NCBI GenBank assembly: GCA_902593285.1
Contig: CACJHW010000001.1
Span: 80,001-144,000 of the forward strand
Reading direction: 5' to 3'
Length of the DNA stretch: 64,000 nucleotides
Source of the DNA: an uncultured Pelagibacteraceae bacterium
GTDB lineage: Bacteria; Pseudomonadota; Alphaproteobacteria; Pelagibacterales; Pelagibacteraceae
Shown here: positions 1 to 13,810 of the stretch, one piece after another
How positions within the stretch are numbered: position 1 is the stretch's first letter
Layout of the letters: each line of letters starts with the position of its first letter
The notes under the pieces: model-generated
Seen by the model: only the letters and a program-made list of their open reading frames with translations
Told to the model about the DNA's origin: nothing
The model's database searches: none
Program-made: the position numbers and the translations under genes

Positions 1-342
1 ATTAGAATTAATAAAAGGGTTTGTTGCCTGAAGAAAAACTATTATATCAAAATCATCGTTTTTTTTCAAAAACTCTTCTATAACTACTTCAGATTTAGCA
101 TTTGATGTAGAGCTTTTTTTTGACCTTTTAAAAAAATCAATTTTTTTTTTATATTTTCCAATAGCCTGATAAATTTTTATGTTATCTGAAGCTATAAAAA
201 ACTGATCAATCTTTCTTGAATTGATAATTTTTTTACAAATAAATTTTATTAAAGGTATACGATTAATTTTAACCAAATTTTTATTTTTTATTCTTTTACT
301 TCCACTTCTTACTGGTATCAAACATGCTACTTTCTTTTTCAC
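1..342 (-). CDS. neuA: CMP-nonulosonate (sialic acid) cytidylyltransferase, C-terminally cut by window edge
   Basis: The first 114 codons of a CMP-sugar synthetase are present; the rest lies outside the window. The N-terminus has the family nucleotide-binding motif LIPVRSGSKRIKNKNL (about residues 8-23), and LQATNPF lies near the window edge. The start is GTG at 342, overlapping the TGA stop of the upstream neuB by 4 bp (GTGA), which implies translational coupling. By family knowledge the enzyme makes a CMP-activated 8- or 9-carbon keto acid from CTP in the cytoplasm, directly after NeuB. The exact sugar (Neu5Ac, legionaminic, KDN-like) cannot be told. A second, complete paralogue lies at 30747-31442. 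Confidence 0.85.
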   Translation of the reverse strand, partial: MKKKVACLIPVRSGSKRIKNKNLVKINRIPLIKFICKKIINSRKIDQFFIASDNIKIYQAIGKYKKKIDFFKRSKKSSTSNAKSEVVIEEFLKKNDDFDIIVFLQATNPFINSN

Positions 343-5635: not shown

Positions 5636-6745
5636 ATGAAAGTTAGATACTCTTATTTAAAACAACAGTTTAGCAATTGCCCAGATTTATGGAGTAAACT
5701 AAAGAAATTTGTATCTACTGGAGATTTTACTTTAGGGAAAGAATTAGGATTTTTTGAGAGAAAATTTGCGCAATTAATAGGTACCAAATATGCAATTGGA
5801 GTTAACTCTGGAACAGATGCATTAAAAATATCTTTAAAAGCTATTGGTGTCAAATCTGGAGATGAAGTTATTACTGCTGCTAATACTTTTGTGGCAACCG
5901 TTGGAGCTATTACTGAAATTGGAGCGATACCAAAATTTGTAGATTGCGACGATACTTTTTGTATGAATGTAGAACATTTAGAAAAAAAAATTACTAAAAA
6001 AACAAAAGCTATAGTGCCTGTTCATTTCACAGGTTACATGACTAACATGCCAAAACTTATGAAATTAAGTAAAAAGTATAAAATTCCAGTCATAGAAGAT
6101 GCCTGTCAATCAATTTTAGGTTCCATTAATAATAAAAATGCTGGGACATGGGGTTTGACTGGAGCTTTCTCATTACATCCACTAAAGAATATAAATGTTT
6201 GGTCTGATGGAGGTATAATTACAACAAATAACAAAAAACTTTATGAAAAAATTAAACTTTTAAGAAATCATGGTTTGATTGATAGAGATACAGTAAAAAT
6301 AAATGGTTATAATTCAAGATTAGATACATTTCAGGCAGTTGTTGGTAATTGGCTTTTACCTAAAGCTAAACAAATTGCCAACAGAAGAATTAAAAATGCA
6401 AAATATTTTGACAATGAGTTTTCCAAAATAAAACAAATTAATATTCCTCCTAGACCCAAAAATATGAAAGTTGTATTTCATCTTTACATAATTTTCGCTG
6501 AGAATAGAGATGAATTATATAAATACTGTCTCAAAAAAGGGATAGAGGCTAAAATTCATTATCCAAAACCAATGTATTTGCAAGAAAGTGTTAAATATCT
6601 AGGATATAAAAAGAATGATTTTCCTATAACTGATGGGCATTGTAAAAAAATAATTTCATTCCCTTGTGATCAGCATCTCACAAAAAAACAACAAAATTAC
6701 ATTATTTCAACAGTTAAGAAGTTTTATATTGGTACTAAAAATTAA
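5636..6745 (+). CDS. DegT/DnrJ/EryC1 PLP-dependent sugar aminotransferase
   Basis: A 369-residue fold-type I aminotransferase that puts an amino group on a keto-sugar nucleotide. It has NSGTDAL (cofactor phosphate site), EDACQS (Asp of the PLP ring contact) and SLHPLKNINVW, with the Schiff-base lysine in HPLKN. The closest relative in this window is the DegT at 10931, which shares stretches such as NSGTDAL, KKTKAI and YLGYKKNDFPI or close variants. Its last 11 bp overlap convergently with the minus-strand VTC gene, which marks the junction of the inverted module at 6735-10853. Confidence 0.88.
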   Translation: MKVRYSYLKQQFSNCPDLWSKLKKFVSTGDFTLGKELGFFERKFAQLIGTKYAIGVNSGTDALKISLKAIGVKSGDEVITAANTFVATVGAITEIGAIPKFVDCDDTFCMNVEHLEKKITKKTKAIVPVHFTGYMTNMPKLMKLSKKYKIPVIEDACQSILGSINNKNAGTWGLTGAFSLHPLKNINVWSDGGIITTNNKKLYEKIKLLRNHGLIDRDTVKINGYNSRLDTFQAVVGNWLLPKAKQIANRRIKNAKYFDNEFSKIKQINIPPRPKNMKVVFHLYIIFAENRDELYKYCLKKGIEAKIHYPKPMYLQESVKYLGYKKNDFPITDGHCKKIISFPCDQHLTKKQQNYIISTVKKFYIGTKN

Positions 6746-7430
6746 TAAGTGAATTTTCGTATTTGGAAAATTTTGTAAATCTATTTTTAAAATTTTCTGA
6801 TAATTTTTTTATCTCTTCAAATTCATTATCATGATACTTGAATTCAACAATATTAAATTTTTTTTTGATAAAAAAATCATTTTTACTTATTTTTTTTTTT
6901 CTATAAAAGTTACAACTTCTTAGATTAGTGTCTAATGTAATTCTAATATTTTTAAACATAAAATATCTTCTATCATAAGAAAGTAGAATATTAGGATCTC
7001 TAGTATTATATTTTATTTGAGTAAGGTTATCTAAAATTTTTATATTATTAATGATTTTTTTAATTTCGGTAGTCGAAATTTCATTTGAAATATTTGCTAC
7101 TTTTAAATTTTGTTTTTTTTTATAATTTTTGTTATTTATTTTTATTTTATTTTCAAGTACTGGTTCAATAACACTGTTAAAAGTTTCGCCATACCATCTC
7201 ATTCTAAGTTTAGATCTATTTTTTTCTCCATCAATTGTATCTAAAAGATCATCAAAATTTTTTGTTTCAAAGTAAATACTGTTAATTTTTCTTTTTTGAA
7301 AAATTTCGCGAAATTTAAGAAATTTAAAAAAATTTAATAAATAGCTTTCAGTCTCTAAAAAAATTAATTTTTTTTCATTTCGTAACTCAATTTTTTCTAA
7401 ATTTTTATTGTGTATTTGAAATTTTTGCAT
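6735..7430 (-). CDS. VTC-domain (triphosphate-tunnel) protein, candidate polyphosphate polymerase
   Basis: This 231-residue protein has the charged motifs of VTC/CYTH tunnel enzymes, in order: EKK (19-21), SIYFET (51-56), LRMRW with the Arg-x-Arg pair (76-78), ENK (93-95), YDRRYF (152-157), RITLDTNLR (163-171) and VEFKYH (195-200). In yeast Vtc4 the equivalent basic and acidic residues line the tunnel that makes polyphosphate from ATP. Bacterial VTC proteins are often encoded beside DUF4956 and CotH proteins, as here. It overlaps the CotH gene by 26 bp and is translationally coupled. Real polyphosphate synthesis is inference. Confidence 0.75.
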   Translation of the reverse strand: MQKFQIHNKNLEKIELRNEKKLIFLETESYLLNFFKFLKFREIFQKRKINSIYFETKNFDDLLDTIDGEKNRSKLRMRWYGETFNSVIEPVLENKIKINNKNYKKKQNLKVANISNEISTTEIKKIINNIKILDNLTQIKYNTRDPNILLSYDRRYFMFKNIRITLDTNLRSCNFYRKKKISKNDFFIKKKFNIVEFKYHDNEFEEIKKLSENFKNRFTKFSKYENSLINF

Positions 7431-10167
7431 CAGGATAAAGTATAGTAAAAAGATCTTTCCTTAATTCATGCGAATATTCATTAACATCAATTTTAAATTT
7501 TGAACCTTCTTCAATTAAAATTGGATTAAGATTGTCTTTTAAATTTATTTTTGAAATTTCGAGATCTGCTGGTCCAAATTCATCTTTCTTTATATAAGTC
7601 GTTATTGGATATTCAGTTGATCGTACATTTATTTTATTTATTTTAGCAATGGAACCGTCTTTAATCGCAATTCCAACATATGAGTTTGTAATATCTAAAT
7701 TTGTTCCATTTATAATACTATTTTCACCAATGCTAATAGCTTTATCCTGTATTTGAGAAGCTTTATAATTTTTAAGTACTAATGTGGTATTCGAAATATC
7801 TATTCCATCGTTTGCACAATTTGTGCAAGAAAAATTATCAATTTTTCCAAAAGAATAATCTAAGTCTAAACCATCTGCATAAATATTTTTAAATTCAATA
7901 TTTTTTAATTCAAACTCTGAATTAATAAAATTAATCCCATCATCACCACTTTTATTATTTTTAAATACAACATTTTTCATAATAATATTTGATTTATAAA
8001 CATTTAGTGAACCTTCTGAAATTATCAAATCTTTGTCACAATTTCTTAAATTATCAAATTCAGTATTTTCAAAGATTGAGGTTTCTTTGGCATTTATAAT
8101 TAAAATACATTGACCTGAATTTTTATTTTTGTATTTTATGTTATTTTTCTGATCATTATTAATTTGCTCAAAAGGCAAACCTTTGATCAATATTTTATTT
8201 TCTTTTGTGCCTTTTGCAATTATTGGAGATTTAGAGATTATCTGCGCATTATTTGTTAGAATAAGTTCTGTACCTGGTAAAATAATTAATTTTTTTGAAT
8301 CAGGAATAATAAGATCTTTAGAAATTATCCACTTACCATTCTTAACAACATATTCATCTTTAATTAATTCAATAAATTTTAAATTATTTTGATCCTGATC
8401 TTTATTATTATTATTTACTAAAAAGTTATCAAATTTAAGATTAATTTTATCACCAGATTCTAATGGATTAGAAATTATTTTAGTTAACTTTCTAAGTGAT
8501 CCAGAAAAATTATAGTGAATTTTTACGCTTTTAAAATTTTTAAAATCTGGACTATTAAAATTTATTGTTTGATAATTTATTGGAGATTTTTCGAATTTTA
8601 AGCTTGAAAACATCTTCAAATTCCTAGGTTTCAAATTAATATCTATAAATTTTTCAAAATTTTCTCCGTTATAACCTTCGATTTCAATTTTACTTACTCT
8701 TATAGGTAACACATGCTTATTTCCGACATCTAGTATTGTATTGTATGAGCCATTGGTCTTTTTTTGTTCATAAAGTAGATCTAAATAAATAGGATCATAG
8801 TAGTTAATGAAACTTTTAACTTTTTTAATTTTTGTTTGAAATAACTCGTGAGGGAACTCGTAATAGGGACTTGATTTATAAATCTTTCTTAAATTTTTGT
8901 TAAATTCATTTTTTATTTTAAAGTTAAATTTTTTTAAATATTCATCTTCAGAATATACTTCTAAATAGTAAACATATTTTTTTAAAAATTCCTCTGATAA
9001 AAAAATATTTTTGTAAAATATACCATAGTTATAAACATCAAGATATCTGATATGTCTTTGCTTAACCTCGTTTGGACTACTAATATAACCTTCATTATAC
9101 CAATCTTGAAATATTGGTTCTAATTTTAAAGAAATTGGATTTAAATAAAAACTCATATTAGCCCAGTGTATTCCATGCCATCCATCTAAAATATCGGAAG
9201 CCGCAAAACCCTTTGCTAATTGATCAATATCAAAAACTTCCTCTGCTTTTAATAATCCTTTTCTAAATTTATCAATCAAATTATAAGCAATATTATAATT
9301 TTTTATTCTTTCTGGATCTGGCTTTGAGATAATTTTTTTATTTGAACTTTTTAATATTGTTTCTTTTTTTTTAATATTTTCATTTAAGGTATCTATTTCT
9401 GTAGTTACAAAACTATTGTCGAAAGCTGCATTAACTGGATTTGTCATAGATAGATCAATGCTATCTCTTATAAAATTATTATCTAATCTGATTGAAATAT
9501 TATCTCTTCTTTTATTTCTAGTAAGTGTTGCCTCTGTAATATTTTCGTCAATTACATAAATGCCATGGTTTTCTCCATTAATAAACAGATTTACAAATTT
9601 ATACTCTAAATAAATTAAACCTTCTTGTTTCAGAAAATTTCTTGCATACCATTCAAGAATATATCCTCTTCTTCTTAAATCCATTAGATTAAATTCTCTC
9701 AGACCTAATATATTTCCTTTCTCTCTCTTTTTTATTTTCACTTTATAGGATATATTTTTATTTCTCATTGAGGGGTTTAGATGTGTTTCAGTATCTCTTC
9801 CTTTAAACCTAATTTTAGATTCGTATTGTTTATTATTATAAACAATAGAAATATCTACCCAATCATTAAGCTCAGATAAAATAGAATTAGTTTTAATAAA
9901 AACTTCTCGTCTATTATTTAGTTCTTTTAAGTTTTCGAAGTTTATATTTAAATAAATTTGATCAACGTCCTGAATTTTCCCTTTTATAAATTTATTAATA
10001 AATTTTACATTTTGGAAAATTAAAGGTTTTATAAATGTATAGAAAAAATGTTTTTTGTGAGCATAAGCACCAAGGGTAAATGAGATTAATATCAATAAAA
10101 TAATTGCAGAAATTTTAAAGTATTTTAAATTATTGATGAAATTAATTTTATTCTTTTTAAAATACAT
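7405..10167 (-). CDS. CotH-kinase family protein with C-terminal parallel beta-helix
   Basis: A 920-residue membrane-anchored protein. Residues 18-36 form one hydrophobic segment (signal anchor). A CotH-like region at about 80-420 has RFKGRDTETHLNPSMRNK, LREFNLMDLR, GENHGIYVIDE (198-208) and DILDGWHGIHWANMSFYLN followed by EPIFQDWYNEG. CotH proteins are protein-kinase-fold enzymes, known as spore-coat kinases but also common outside spore formers. Residues about 620-900 look like a right-handed beta-helix with repeats rich in Asn, Asp and Ile (GDDGINF, ADGLDLD, NDGIDIS). The C-terminal part may bind a polymer outside the inner membrane. The substrate is unknown. It is the middle gene of a three-gene minus-strand operon. 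Confidence 0.72.
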   Translation of the reverse strand: MYFKKNKINFINNLKYFKISAIILLILISFTLGAYAHKKHFFYTFIKPLIFQNVKFINKFIKGKIQDVDQIYLNINFENLKELNNRREVFIKTNSILSELNDWVDISIVYNNKQYESKIRFKGRDTETHLNPSMRNKNISYKVKIKKREKGNILGLREFNLMDLRRRGYILEWYARNFLKQEGLIYLEYKFVNLFINGENHGIYVIDENITEATLTRNKRRDNISIRLDNNFIRDSIDLSMTNPVNAAFDNSFVTTEIDTLNENIKKKETILKSSNKKIISKPDPERIKNYNIAYNLIDKFRKGLLKAEEVFDIDQLAKGFAASDILDGWHGIHWANMSFYLNPISLKLEPIFQDWYNEGYISSPNEVKQRHIRYLDVYNYGIFYKNIFLSEEFLKKYVYYLEVYSEDEYLKKFNFKIKNEFNKNLRKIYKSSPYYEFPHELFQTKIKKVKSFINYYDPIYLDLLYEQKKTNGSYNTILDVGNKHVLPIRVSKIEIEGYNGENFEKFIDINLKPRNLKMFSSLKFEKSPINYQTINFNSPDFKNFKSVKIHYNFSGSLRKLTKIISNPLESGDKINLKFDNFLVNNNNKDQDQNNLKFIELIKDEYVVKNGKWIISKDLIIPDSKKLIILPGTELILTNNAQIISKSPIIAKGTKENKILIKGLPFEQINNDQKNNIKYKNKNSGQCILIINAKETSIFENTEFDNLRNCDKDLIISEGSLNVYKSNIIMKNVVFKNNKSGDDGINFINSEFELKNIEFKNIYADGLDLDYSFGKIDNFSCTNCANDGIDISNTTLVLKNYKASQIQDKAISIGENSIINGTNLDITNSYVGIAIKDGSIAKINKINVRSTEYPITTYIKKDEFGPADLEISKINLKDNLNPILIEEGSKFKIDVNEYSHELRKDLFTILYPDAKISNTQ

Positions 10168-10178
10168 CCTCTTTGATT

Positions 10179-10853
10179 TTAGATAACATCATGTTTATTA
10201 ATAAGGTTTATCTCTATTTTATCATTAATAGATTTTATCTCTTTTATTAAATTATCAATATTGTTTGAGTCCTGGAAATTGATTACCAGACCAATTTGAG
10301 ACTTATCAATTAATAAATCAAAATCCCTTAGATAAACACTCGAACAATAATTTTTACATAAATTCAAAATTTTATCTAAATCTAGTTTACCATTGAAGTT
10401 TAAAGTTAAATAAATAGCTTCATTAGATACTTCTTTATTTCCAAAAAATTTTTCTTTTATAATTATTGAAGCAATAATTAATATTACAGCCATAATTGTT
10501 ATGAGTTTATAATTCGCACCTAAACCTAGTCCTATTCCAATACAAATAAACAAATATGATATTTCCTCAGGTTCTTTTATTGCTGTCCTAAATCTTATTA
10601 TCGAAAGTGCACCAACCAAACCCAAAGATAATGCGAGCGATGACTTAACAATAGAGATTATAAATGCTGTAGTCATAGCAATGACAATAAAATTTTTGCT
10701 AAAAACTTTTTTATTATTTATAGTATTGCTATAATTTACAAATACATACTCTAAAATCCATGCCAGTATTGCAGCTATAATTAAATTTAGGGCTAAATCT
10801 GTATAGTTTAATTGAATATTGATATTTTGTTTTAATGACGTTAAAGATTCCAT
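10179..10853 (-). CDS. DUF4956 integral membrane protein
   Basis: A 224-residue protein with an N-terminal membrane domain: hydrophobic segments near 21-40, 54-72, 76-88 and 99-133. The hallmark SIIRFRTAIKEPEE follows the third segment. The last ~85 residues form a soluble alpha/beta domain with a ferredoxin-like look. These traits match DUF4956, a family of unknown biochemical function that frequently sits beside VTC-domain proteins. It is the first gene of the minus-strand operon, 11 bp before the CotH gene. A role in transport or assembly of the VTC product is inference from neighbourhood only. Confidence 0.75.
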   Translation of the reverse strand: MESLTSLKQNINIQLNYTDLALNLIIAAILAWILEYVFVNYSNTINNKKVFSKNFIVIAMTTAFIISIVKSSLALSLGLVGALSIIRFRTAIKEPEEISYLFICIGIGLGLGANYKLITIMAVILIIASIIIKEKFFGNKEVSNEAIYLTLNFNGKLDLDKILNLCKNYCSSVYLRDFDLLIDKSQIGLVINFQDSNNIDNLIKEIKSINDKIEINLINKHDVI

Positions 10854-10863
10854 AAGTAATTAG

Positions 10864-10891
10864 GTTATATTGTAATAAATTGTAAATTCAA
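10864..10891 (-). promoter_or_regulatory. Candidate sigma-70 promoter of the DUF4956-CotH-VTC operon
   Basis: On the minus strand, TTGAAT (10886-10891) and TATAAC (10864-10869) are separated by 16 bp, in the 77 bp divergent gap. The predicted start lies about 4 nt before the ATG at 10853, giving a leaderless or nearly leaderless message. It supports the three genes being one independent unit. Confidence 0.35.
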
Positions 10892-10930
10892 TAAAAGGTT
10901 TTTTGAAATAAATCTTAAAAACATTAAATT

Positions 10931-12031
10931 ATGAAGATTCCTTATATTAATTTAAAAAAACAATACGCATTAGAAAAAAAAAAATTATTAAAAATAATTG
11001 ATAAAACATTTGCTTCAGGAAATTGGGTTGGAGGTGATGAAGTAACTACGTTTGAAAAAAATATCTCTAATGCATGTAATGTAAAATACTGTGTAGCTTT
11101 AAATAGTGGAACAGATGCACTAACTCTTTCTTTGCATTTATTAGGAGTTAAACGTGGTGATGAAGTAATAACTCCTCCAAATTCTTTTGTCGCCTCAGCA
11201 GCTACAATTATTCACTTAGGTGCAAAGCCTGTTTTTGTTGATATCAAGGATGACCAAAATATTGATGAAAATAAAATAGAAAATCAAATTACAAAAAAAA
11301 CAAAAGCTATTATGCCTGTTCATTTAACTGGCAGAATGTGTAATATGGATAAAATTTTAAAAATTTCTAAAAAATTTAAAATACCAATTGTAGAGGATTG
11401 TGCTCAATCAATTTTATCTAAGTATAAGAATAAATTTTCTGGAACATGGGGTGATGTAGGTTGTTTTTCTGCTCATCCTTTAAAAAATTTAAATGCCATG
11501 GGAGACTCTGGTTATGTTACTACAAATAATAAGTCACTTTATTTAAAAATAAAAAATTTACGATCACATGGCATGGAGGAAAATAGAAATGACATAAGTG
11601 ATTTTGGACATGTTTCAAGAATGGATAACATACAAGCAGCAATACTTAATTTTAGATTAAAAAATTTAAAACAAATAATTAAACAAAGAAGAAATAATGT
11701 TAATTTATATTTAGAAAACCTAGACAGAAAAAAAATTTTTTTTCCAAAAGAAAAATTTGATGAGTTCAATACTTATCATACATTTGTAATTCAGGTTGAA
11801 GAAAGAGAAAAATTAATTAAGTATTTAGCTGATAATGGTGTAGGCACGGCTATTCATTATCCTATTCCAATACATTTACAAAAAGCCTCTAAATTCTTAG
11901 GATATAAAAAAAATGATTTTCCAATTGCAGAAAAGCAATCTAAAAAAATTTTAACTTTACCAATAAATCAGTTTTTAAGAAAAGAAGAAATTAATTTTAT
12001 CTGTAAATTAATTAATAAATTTTATAAATAG
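10931..12031 (+). CDS. DegT/DnrJ/EryC1 PLP-dependent sugar aminotransferase
   Basis: A 366-residue sugar aminotransferase with NSGTDAL, EDCAQS and the Schiff-base lysine in SAHPLKNLN. It is strongly similar along its whole length to the DegT at 5636; the inverted CotH/VTC module lies exactly between the two. It is followed 12 bp later by the split transketolase, so it heads the 'sporadic carbohydrate' operon and probably aminates the keto-sugar made there or used there. The substrate is unknown. Confidence 0.88.
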   Translation: MKIPYINLKKQYALEKKKLLKIIDKTFASGNWVGGDEVTTFEKNISNACNVKYCVALNSGTDALTLSLHLLGVKRGDEVITPPNSFVASAATIIHLGAKPVFVDIKDDQNIDENKIENQITKKTKAIMPVHLTGRMCNMDKILKISKKFKIPIVEDCAQSILSKYKNKFSGTWGDVGCFSAHPLKNLNAMGDSGYVTTNNKSLYLKIKNLRSHGMEENRNDISDFGHVSRMDNIQAAILNFRLKNLKQIIKQRRNNVNLYLENLDRKKIFFPKEKFDEFNTYHTFVIQVEEREKLIKYLADNGVGTAIHYPIPIHLQKASKFLGYKKNDFPIAEKQSKKILTLPINQFLRKEEINFICKLINKFYK

Positions 12032-12043
12032 AGTCTTATAAAT

Positions 12044-12874
12044 ATGAATTATGAAAAAAAATCTTTATCAATATCTTTAGATCATAGATCAAAATACTTA
12101 AGAAAATTAGTATTAAAATGTTTGATAGGTGGTGACAGAGGGCATATGGGATCAGCTATGTCATTAATTGAAATTTTACGAGTTTTATATGATGATGTAT
12201 TAAAGTTTTTTCCAAGTAATCCAAAAAACGAAAATAGAGACAGATTAATATTGAGCAAAGGTCATGGTTGTTTAGCACTATATGCAATTTTAGCTGATAA
12301 AGGTTTTTTTTCTAAAAATGTATTAAGCACCTCTAGTAAATTTGACTCAATTCTTGGTGGACATCCTGAATTTGATAAGGTTCCAGGTGTAGAGGCTTCG
12401 ACTGGCGCTTTAGGACATGGAGCTCCAATTGGAATAGGTTTGGCAATAGGAGCAAAAATAGATAATAAGAAATTTAAAACTTTTGTAATTGTTGGCGATG
12501 GTGAAATTAATGAGGGATCATTCTGGGAAGCCTCAATGATTGCAAAAAAACACAAACTTAACAACTTTCACGTTATAATTGACTATAACAAGATCCAATC
12601 ATATGGAAGAACTAAAGATGTTTTAGATTTAGAACCTCTTAAAGATAAACTAGCTTCTTTTGGATACAAAGTAGAGCAGGTTAATGGTCATGATATAAGA
12701 AAATTAAAAACATATTTTAAAAAAATAAAAAATTCAAAAACTCCAACAGCATTAATTAGTCACACAATAAAAGGAAAAGGTTTTTATTTTGCAGAGCAAA
12801 ATCCTTTTTGGCATCATAAAAATTTTTTTACTGAAGAAGAAATAAAAAAACTTAATAGCTGCATGAAAGATTAA
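12044..12874 (+). CDS. Transketolase, N-terminal (thiamine diphosphate) subunit
   Basis: A 276-residue protein covering only the pyrophosphate-binding half of transketolase. Seen: GGDRGHMGSAMS, SKGHGCLALYA, GHPEFDKVPGVEASTGALGHG and the ThDP motif GDGEINEG, with Asn about 26 residues on (DYNKIQ). The C-terminal half is the next gene, starting immediately after the stop codon, so the pair form one enzyme. Split transketolases in sugar gene clusters are distinct from the housekeeping tkt, which is also in this window (62275). A likely role is two-carbon ketol transfer onto a modified or branched sugar; this is inference. Confidence 0.85.
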   Translation: MNYEKKSLSISLDHRSKYLRKLVLKCLIGGDRGHMGSAMSLIEILRVLYDDVLKFFPSNPKNENRDRLILSKGHGCLALYAILADKGFFSKNVLSTSSKFDSILGGHPEFDKVPGVEASTGALGHGAPIGIGLAIGAKIDNKKFKTFVIVGDGEINEGSFWEASMIAKKHKLNNFHVIIDYNKIQSYGRTKDVLDLEPLKDKLASFGYKVEQVNGHDIRKLKTYFKKIKNSKTPTALISHTIKGKGFYFAEQNPFWHHKNFFTEEEIKKLNSCMKD

Positions 12875-13810
12875 ATGAGAAAAACTTGTCTAGAAACTGT
12901 TTTTAAATTAGCAAAAAAAAATAAAAAATTAGTTTTTATTGGATCAGATTTGGGGCCTGGAGTTTTAGATAACTTTAAAAAAAAATATCCAAATAGATTT
13001 TTTATGGAAGGTGTTGCTGAACAAGCAATTATTGGAATGGCAGCTGGGTTGGCAATGCAAAAATTTAGACCGTATGTAAATACAATAGCAACCTTCATTA
13101 CAAGAAGATGCTTTGAACAAGTTGTAGTTGATTTATGTTTACATAATTTGCCTGTAACTTTAATTGGTAACGGAGGTGGAATGGTATATGCACCTTTAGG
13201 TCCAACTCATCAGGCAATAGAGGATATTTCAATTATGAGAGCTTTACCAAATTTAACCATTCTTTGTCCATGCGATGCTAATGATATGAAGCAGTTAGTT
13301 ATGCAAACTATTAAAGTAAACGGTCCAATTTACATAAGAATTGCAAGAGGGGGTGAAAAGATTATCTCAGATGGGTTTAAAGCAAAAATTGGAAAAGGAC
13401 TCATATTCAAAAGAGTACAAAAGTATAATTTTATAACAACAGGTGTGATGGCTCAAGTAGGATTAGATGCTATAGATAAACTTAAGAAGAAATATAATTT
13501 AAATGTTGGATTGATACACTTTTCAACTATAAAACCACTTGATAAGACTTTATTAAGAAAAATTTTTAAAAAATCTGAAAAGATAATTACTATTGAAGAG
13601 AATTTAAAAGAGGGAGGATTTGGCTCTTCTATTTTAGAGTATCATTCTTCACTAAATAATAATGATAAAACTAAAATAAAAATTTTTGGTTTAAAAAGCT
13701 CATTTTCAAATAAATATGGAACGCAACAAGAAATTTTGAAAGAAAACAACTTACATGATGATTATTTATCTAAAAAAATGTATAGATTTATTTTGAATGA
13801 TAGATTTTAA
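12875..13810 (+). CDS. Transketolase, C-terminal (pyrimidine-binding) subunit
   Basis: A 311-residue partner of the preceding gene; its ATG follows that gene's TAA directly. It has the pyrimidine-domain motif EGVAEQAIIGMAAGLA with its catalytic Glu, ATFITRRCFEQV, and GPTHQAIEDISIMRALPN. The C-terminal domain, with the EENLKEGGFGS segment, is complete. Length is normal for the split form. Its last 14 bp overlap the 2OG-oxygenase gene in another frame, so translation is coupled. Confidence 0.85.
   Translation: MRKTCLETVFKLAKKNKKLVFIGSDLGPGVLDNFKKKYPNRFFMEGVAEQAIIGMAAGLAMQKFRPYVNTIATFITRRCFEQVVVDLCLHNLPVTLIGNGGGMVYAPLGPTHQAIEDISIMRALPNLTILCPCDANDMKQLVMQTIKVNGPIYIRIARGGEKIISDGFKAKIGKGLIFKRVQKYNFITTGVMAQVGLDAIDKLKKKYNLNVGLIHFSTIKPLDKTLLRKIFKKSEKIITIEENLKEGGFGSSILEYHSSLNNNDKTKIKIFGLKSSFSNKYGTQQEILKENNLHDDYLSKKMYRFILNDRF

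Follow-up and report, generated by a model that had tools for sequence, protein, structure and literature searches.

Genes for a VTC-family protein, a CotH-fold protein and a DUF4956 membrane protein form a real and widespread set, found in many bacterial phyla and in archaea. It is already known, from the available parts of two reports, that cotH, polyphosphate polymerase and DUF4956 genes occur beside pel genes (PMC7112168, PMC12345266). The new part is a form in which the CotH-fold domain is fused to a beta-helix and has His in place of its catalytic Asp, together with the range of the trio outside Pel loci. This form lies in the window, the whole 64,000-nucleotide stretch of DNA analyzed here, which corresponds to bases 80001-144000 of contig 1 in a 1.04-Mb, 79%-complete genome of an uncultured Pelagibacteraceae bacterium.

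Gene layout and family assignment

The original prediction of a VTC - CotH/beta-helix - DUF4956 module is confirmed as three minus-strand genes in a sugar locus. They are transcribed in the order DUF4956, CotH plus beta-helix, VTC, and their coordinates bear out the tight arrangement that had been claimed (table 1). The family calls also stand: the VTC protein matches PF09359 with 95 bits (cut-off 23), its sole Pfam match, the DUF4956 protein matches PF16316 with 60.8 bits (cut-off 30.6), and the CotH family is recognized by its fold.

Table 1. Features of the trio and of the adjoining gap (positions in the window)
Feature	Residues	Position	Strand	Basis
DUF4956 membrane protein, 224 aa		10179..10853	minus	
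Five predicted membrane helices of DUF4956	17-41, 54-69, 72-89, 95-112, 116-140			
C-terminal ferredoxin/ACT-like domain of DUF4956	146-219			
CotH-fold domain fused to right-handed beta-helix, 920 aa, predicted membrane-anchored		7405..10167	minus	
Predicted N-terminal membrane helix (anchor)	7-38	10054..10149	minus	model secondary structure and hydrophobicity
CotH-fold domain	66-456	8800..9972	minus	
His331 codon, place of CotH catalytic Asp228	331	9175..9177	minus	alignment
Asp355 codon, equivalent of CotH Asp251	355	9103..9105	minus	alignment
Right-handed beta-helix	591-905	7453..8397	minus	
VTC-family tunnel protein, predicted polyphosphate polymerase, 231 aa		6735..7430	minus	
77-bp gap between trio and divergent DegT aminotransferase gene		10854..10930	none	

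Twenty flanking ORFs were scanned with Pfam, five of which had no match. NeuB is encoded on the minus strand. The plus-strand flanks encode NAD epimerases, a two-domain PfkB/cytidylyltransferase protein, DegT aminotransferases, a transketolase in two ORFs, methyltransferases, an ABC ATPase and a UDP-GlcNAc 2-epimerase. Judged by these predicted families, the surroundings are a surface-sugar type region. Of three DegT aminotransferase genes, two flank the trio and one is more distant; the trio is inverted between the flanking two (5636-6745 and 10931-12031), as if inserted. The transketolase ORFs occupy positions 12044-13810, in the sugar region next to the trio. The 77-bp gap is the only room for a promoter directly ahead of the DUF4956 gene, and promoter-like sites within it are not above chance, so that the predicted promoter of the trio's own is not supported.

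No SPX domain was found in the VTC protein. A profile of 25 relatives matches yeast VTC2 (E = 6.3e-7) and VTC4 (E = 7.3e-7), and the profile alignment places R-L-R-W-Y-G of Vtc4 opposite R76-M-R78-W-Y-G of the window protein. We take the R-L-R pair aligned with R76 and R78 to be Arg264 and Arg266 of Vtc4; the roles of the remaining conserved tunnel residues are likewise our own reading. As predicted, tunnel-type residues are kept: across 103 bacterial and archaeal VTC ORFs, 18 charged or polar positions are each conserved in 100 or more (E19, K21, R72, K74, R76, R78, Y80, E93, K95, K104, Y152, R154, R163, D167, E196, K198, S222, and K223). The VTC alignment used 24 of 77 VTC matches. Arg264 and Arg266 of yeast Vtc4 are essential for polyphosphate synthesis, according to the available part of the report (PMC8749416). 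Like the yeast VTC complex, in which Vtc4 is the catalytic subunit, the window protein has the VTC tunnel domain, the R-x-R motif and further residues. Unlike it, the protein has no SPX domain and no fused membrane part; its membrane partner would be the separate DUF4956 protein. From the kept residues, we predict that it polymerizes phosphate from ATP.

The DUF4956 alignment used 29 of the 120 matches listed; the protein has invariant Arg and Lys residues. The MgtC Pfam match of this protein stays under the cut-off (11.3 bits vs 31.4). Fold searches matched only its C-terminal domain, with an MgtC-like C-terminal fold tied with many others, and listed no VTC1- or MgtC-like membrane match, a result that speaks against neither. 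Because these searches barely probed the membrane part, a conducting role of DUF4956 is something that we purely infer.

A CotH-fold domain with His at the catalytic position, fused to a beta-helix

Lys-rich residues precede the predicted anchor helix of the CotH-beta-helix protein. PF08757 scores 23.1 bits against this protein (cut-off 23.8) and 33.9 bits in a six-frame search, and comparison with Bacillus CotH (5jd9/5jda) shows that the CotH fold is present. A 44-row profile of the whole protein matches CotH and, weakly, geminin; single-sequence PDB searches returned nothing below E = 0.1, and NCBIfam gave no useful match. The closest named relative of the kinase, from an uncultured Pelagibacteraceae bacterium, shares 60% identity, which makes the host SAR11-like and likely marine.

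The claim of a CotH kinase holds for the fold and for the Asp251 equivalent (Asp355), and fails for a canonical kinase. The Glu208 column is also shared with Bacillus CotH, from which the window protein differs by the additional beta-helix, its predicted location outside the membrane and His331 in place of the catalytic Asp228. Because of this replacement, we file the domain as CotH-like and not as a CotH kinase. His occupies the position in 71 of 77 helix-fused kinases; in the same set Glu208 is invariant (77/77), and the Asp355 position holds 66 Asp, 10 Glu and 1 Asn. In the available part of one report, changing Asp228 to Gln inactivated Bacillus CotH (PMC7821199). The His in the window sequence suggests altered chemistry; it could also mark a dead kinase.

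Repeated evolution of His together with the helix was considered and rejected: a single change suffices on a tree of 93 kinases, so the His-helix link counts as a single event. This tree left out 22 of 115 kinases, which were shorter than 200 residues or had another letter or a gap at the Asp228 position; it kept the His/Asp trait column, and its root, hence the direction of the change, is not known. Under a midpoint root, three fused His rows (L044, L045, and L047) join the Asp side, and the His row L108 8304-10073 is poorly aligned and has a very long branch. The kinases of L044, L045, and L047 branch apart from the other His-type ones, and that of L048 is outside the tree. In these four family loci, the DUF4956 and kinase-helix genes are separated by an additional gene of about 343 aa; the one member scanned had no Pfam match. 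At L034:401-7837 (minus strand), also in the family, the kinase-helix ORF encodes 2479 aa, compared with the usual 700-1000, and has no Pfam match either.

The beta-helix displays a groove of Asp and Lys residues (D743, D765, D768, D770, D787, D790, D808, K809, E815, K836, D837, K860, and K861). These are near-invariant: groove residues are kept in 44/44 alignment rows, compared with 40/43 for Asp355 of the kinase part. A helix alignment used 44 of 79 helix stretches. The fold matches of the helix include alginate epimerase, polygalacturonase and lyase folds. With AlgG and the GH28 enzymes, which are pectin-lyase-like, it shares the right-handed beta-helix, in the case of AlgG by fold only. 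In a single hhalign comparison, its profile aligns with GH28 at E = 7.6e-10, the acidic groove falling coil by coil at the place of the GH28 active site, with changes; compared directly with solved structures, the profile gave only a chance-like match (E = 0.52). The GH28 coil motifs N-T-D, D-D, G-H-G, and R-x-K have catalytic roles. D765, D787, and K836 align with the same letters in GH28. Asn, Asp and Ala (N786, D808, and A834) replace, in this order, the first D (a catalytic Asp), the H and the R, N786 being present in 40/44 rows; GH28 membership was rejected on these replacements. At L124:9497-10303 and L097:13340-14137, several groove Asp are lost, and these are perhaps inactive paralogues.

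The stricter conservation of the groove than of the kinase residues, the His at the catalytic Asp, and the fold and GH28 matches would all agree with a CotH part that is a pseudokinase or scaffold. The beta-helix, of epimerase, lyase or hydrolase type, would then edit the surface glycan, and the VTC product would only tune it or bind. We consider this somewhat unlikely: the Asp355 place holds Asp or Glu in 76 of the 77 helix-fused kinases and Glu208 is kept in all of them, whereas free decay needs neither, and the Asn at one GH28 catalytic Asp speaks against a working helix.

The literature searched, which covered no preprints and few subscription papers, gave no account of a CotH-beta-helix fusion or of the His switch. 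His for Asp228 and the Asp/Lys helix groove look like two new features.

Distribution of the trio and of its neighbors

A co-occurrence survey was run on an unselected sample of 249 genomes of the phylum. DUF4956 and VTC (over the cut-off) were found in the same seven, among them the window's own; a VTC match in an eighth, G670, stays under the cut-off. Since three of the seven genomes belong to one genus and two to one family, they represent fewer than seven independent cases. At 9/9 places, no more than about 3.4 kb separates the two genes. CotH stands next to six of these, fused to the helix at five (the window and L153-L156) and unfused at one (L152), and occurs in 19 further genomes without the pair. 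Its absence from the other three places shows that VTC and DUF4956 can go without CotH. Among 14 control genomes, DUF4956 and VTC matched in the same three. Of the controls, the laboratory organisms Methanosarcina acetivorans and Corynebacterium glutamicum have genomes with matches to all three families.

In the family sample, DUF4956 is patchy (36/197 genomes). All three genes are present at 33 of 40 family loci; in the remaining seven, VTC alone or both partners are missing because the contig ends or, at L034, because the fetched sequence does. A helix-fused kinase is seen at 33 of the 40. Among the seven loci without fusion, three lack a kinase and two have one cut at the contig end; in the last two, L033 and L064, the kinase is short and no helix was found. 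Of the 40 loci, 37 have a CotH-type gene and the other three are cut at the contig end. L032 and L073, both 28,638 bases long with identical kinases, are apparently the same contig, so that one case is counted twice. One family DUF4956 place, in G338 at a contig end, is outside the loci fetched.

Outside the family, we took the best 80 of 552 loci by likeness to the window's DUF4956, and their percentages are therefore not unbiased: within the sequence fetched, 61 hold all three families, 69 VTC and 43 a fused kinase. Both partners are absent from four: L085 and L089 lie near a contig end, and L103 and L104 have about 7 kb on both sides. With these counts, the CotH/beta-helix combination is not the unusual one that had been supposed. 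Fused kinases occur in archaea (Methanogenium marinum and a Methanosarcina strain) and in Planctomycetota, Bacteroidota, Patescibacteria, Calditrichota, and Poribacteria. Two loci, L107 (Flavobacteriaceae) and L146 (Vallitaleaceae), encode kinase and helix in two adjoining genes. MAG contigs are possibly misbinned, for example L094 and L099; L086 and L124 carry strain names in their records. One further alignment took 52 of the 80 loci and 5 matches. In the class sample, DUF4956 was found in 6/289 genomes; among the three inspected, L163 and L164 have the fused trio and L162 has DUF4956 alone. At L049:8211-11762, VTC follows directly after DUF4956 and the kinase-helix gene is on the opposite strand; the gene order of the trio is therefore not fixed.

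The present loci are a trio arrangement outside the Pel locus, which the authors of PMC12345266, a paper of 2025, failed to find, as stated in the available part of that report. PelG (PF16933) matched in none of the 36 family genomes with DUF4956, including the window's own and 14 that are at least 90% complete; the control, Thermotoga maritima, matches. Elsewhere, PelG was found in 2 of the 41 genomes reached through 41 of the 61 trio loci among the best 80 of 552. A Pel locus was rejected for the window, as there is no PelG in its 79%-complete genome. These data bear on the proposal, made for Pel loci in the available part of PMC7112168, that CotH is a Ser/Thr protein kinase regulating glycan synthesis, with which the lower Pel of a Streptococcus intermedius CotH deletion agrees. 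For the helix-fused form this is highly improbable: besides the lack of PelG in 36/36 family genomes, most helix-fused kinases have no Asp228, the residue whose change to Gln inactivates the Bacillus protein.

A metallophosphoesterase-type (calcineurin-like) gene abuts the trio genes on the same strand at 14 of 120 loci (40 of the family and the best 80 of 552 elsewhere) and divergently at 2; three of three scanned members of its cluster match Metallophos. Another gene stands beside CotH genes in nine of the best 80 loci, all labeled Bacteroidota or a member of it; Wzy_C was matched in one long member, and a second, a fragment, had no match. Such metallophosphoesterase and O-antigen-ligase-like neighbors would fit phosphate turnover on a surface glycan. 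Together with the phosphate transporter PHO4, they uphold, through relatives, the predicted link of the trio to phosphate and to surface glycans; none of them abuts the window's trio.

PHO4 follows DUF4956-VTC at both scanned CotH-less places, of the three that exist (L159 is the third). These are L157 and L158, of the same class, which have no CotH match and apparently represent a second, different use of the pair. The DUF4956 of L157-L159 is distant: Pfam detects it, but HMMs from the window's relatives do not. VTC and DUF4956 might be a phosphate storage or homeostasis unit to which the CotH-beta-helix is attached as a separate surface protein. Such a unit would agree with these PHO4 loci, with CotH standing next to only six of nine VTC-DUF4956 places, and with no PPK1 match in the window's own 79%-complete genome. 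It is nonetheless unlikely in view of the CotH-type gene at 37/40 family loci, the other three being cut.

A possible machine for phosphorylating surface glycans

Quite possibly, though we say so tentatively, the three proteins are one machine, in which polyphosphate made inside is passed through the membrane and used outside to phosphorylate a surface glycan. The VTC protein would polymerize phosphate from ATP. DUF4956, its near-constant neighbor, is the predicted membrane partner; on the model of the yeast VTC complex, it would keep the enzyme in place and may let the chain through. ATP is scarce outside the membrane. The CotH-fold part, predicted to lie there, would take phosphate from the delivered polyphosphate chain, and the conserved Asp/Lys groove of the beta-helix would be where the proposed substrate, a glycan, is held or processed.

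We count in favor of one machine the co-occurrence of DUF4956 and VTC, the kept VTC residues, the phosphate-gene neighbors, the GH28 alignment and the sugar-gene flanks, as well as the effects of CotH and DUF4956 deletions in S. intermedius. Against it stand DUF4956 without either partner at L103, L104, and L162, the lack of CotH at three of nine VTC-DUF4956 places, the non-independence of the seven co-occurring genomes and the chance that His331 marks a dead kinase. As described in the available part of PMC12345266, deletion of DUF4956 in S. intermedius gives more Pel and less aggregation, deletion of CotH gives less Pel and less aggregation, and for deletion of the VTC gene SIR_1593 that part mentions no change. 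With no change mentioned for the VTC deletion and opposite effects of the other two on Pel, a simple linear pathway fits badly; as far as that part reports them, these deletions speak most strongly against steps that follow one another strictly. In the literature searched, we found no trio carrier for which a phosphorylated glycan is reported.

A bolder version of the one-machine proposal is that the His-type CotH-beta-helix protein is a new extracytoplasmic enzyme of bacteria and archaea, fed by polyphosphate and not by ATP, perhaps with a phospho-His331 and with the glycan in its groove. We see only a slim chance of this.

The available parts of two accounts place the same three families side by side in SIR_1592-1594 of S. 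intermedius, with an FN3 end reported for the CotH protein and the genes lying beside pelDEADAFG (PMC7112168, PMC12345266). The window's trio differs by the beta-helix fusion, His for Asp228 and no PelG found. NELoc-2 of Clostridium perfringens resembles it in the VTC and CotH families, listed there as VTC, "tubulin/FtsZ" and CotH with glycosyltransferase and deacetylase genes; it differs in that the available parts of these reports mention no beta-helix (PMC2879425, PMC11677781).

Beyond Pel loci, the trio is now seen in SAR11-like bacteria, in methanogen strains and across many phyla. As one gene set, a predicted polyphosphate maker, a membrane protein and a kinase-like fold predicted to lie outside make two questions testable: how enzymes beyond the membrane obtain phosphate when they have no ATP, and what purpose bacterial VTC proteins serve. 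If the proposed machine is real, cells thought to be short of phosphate would spend some of it on their own surface.
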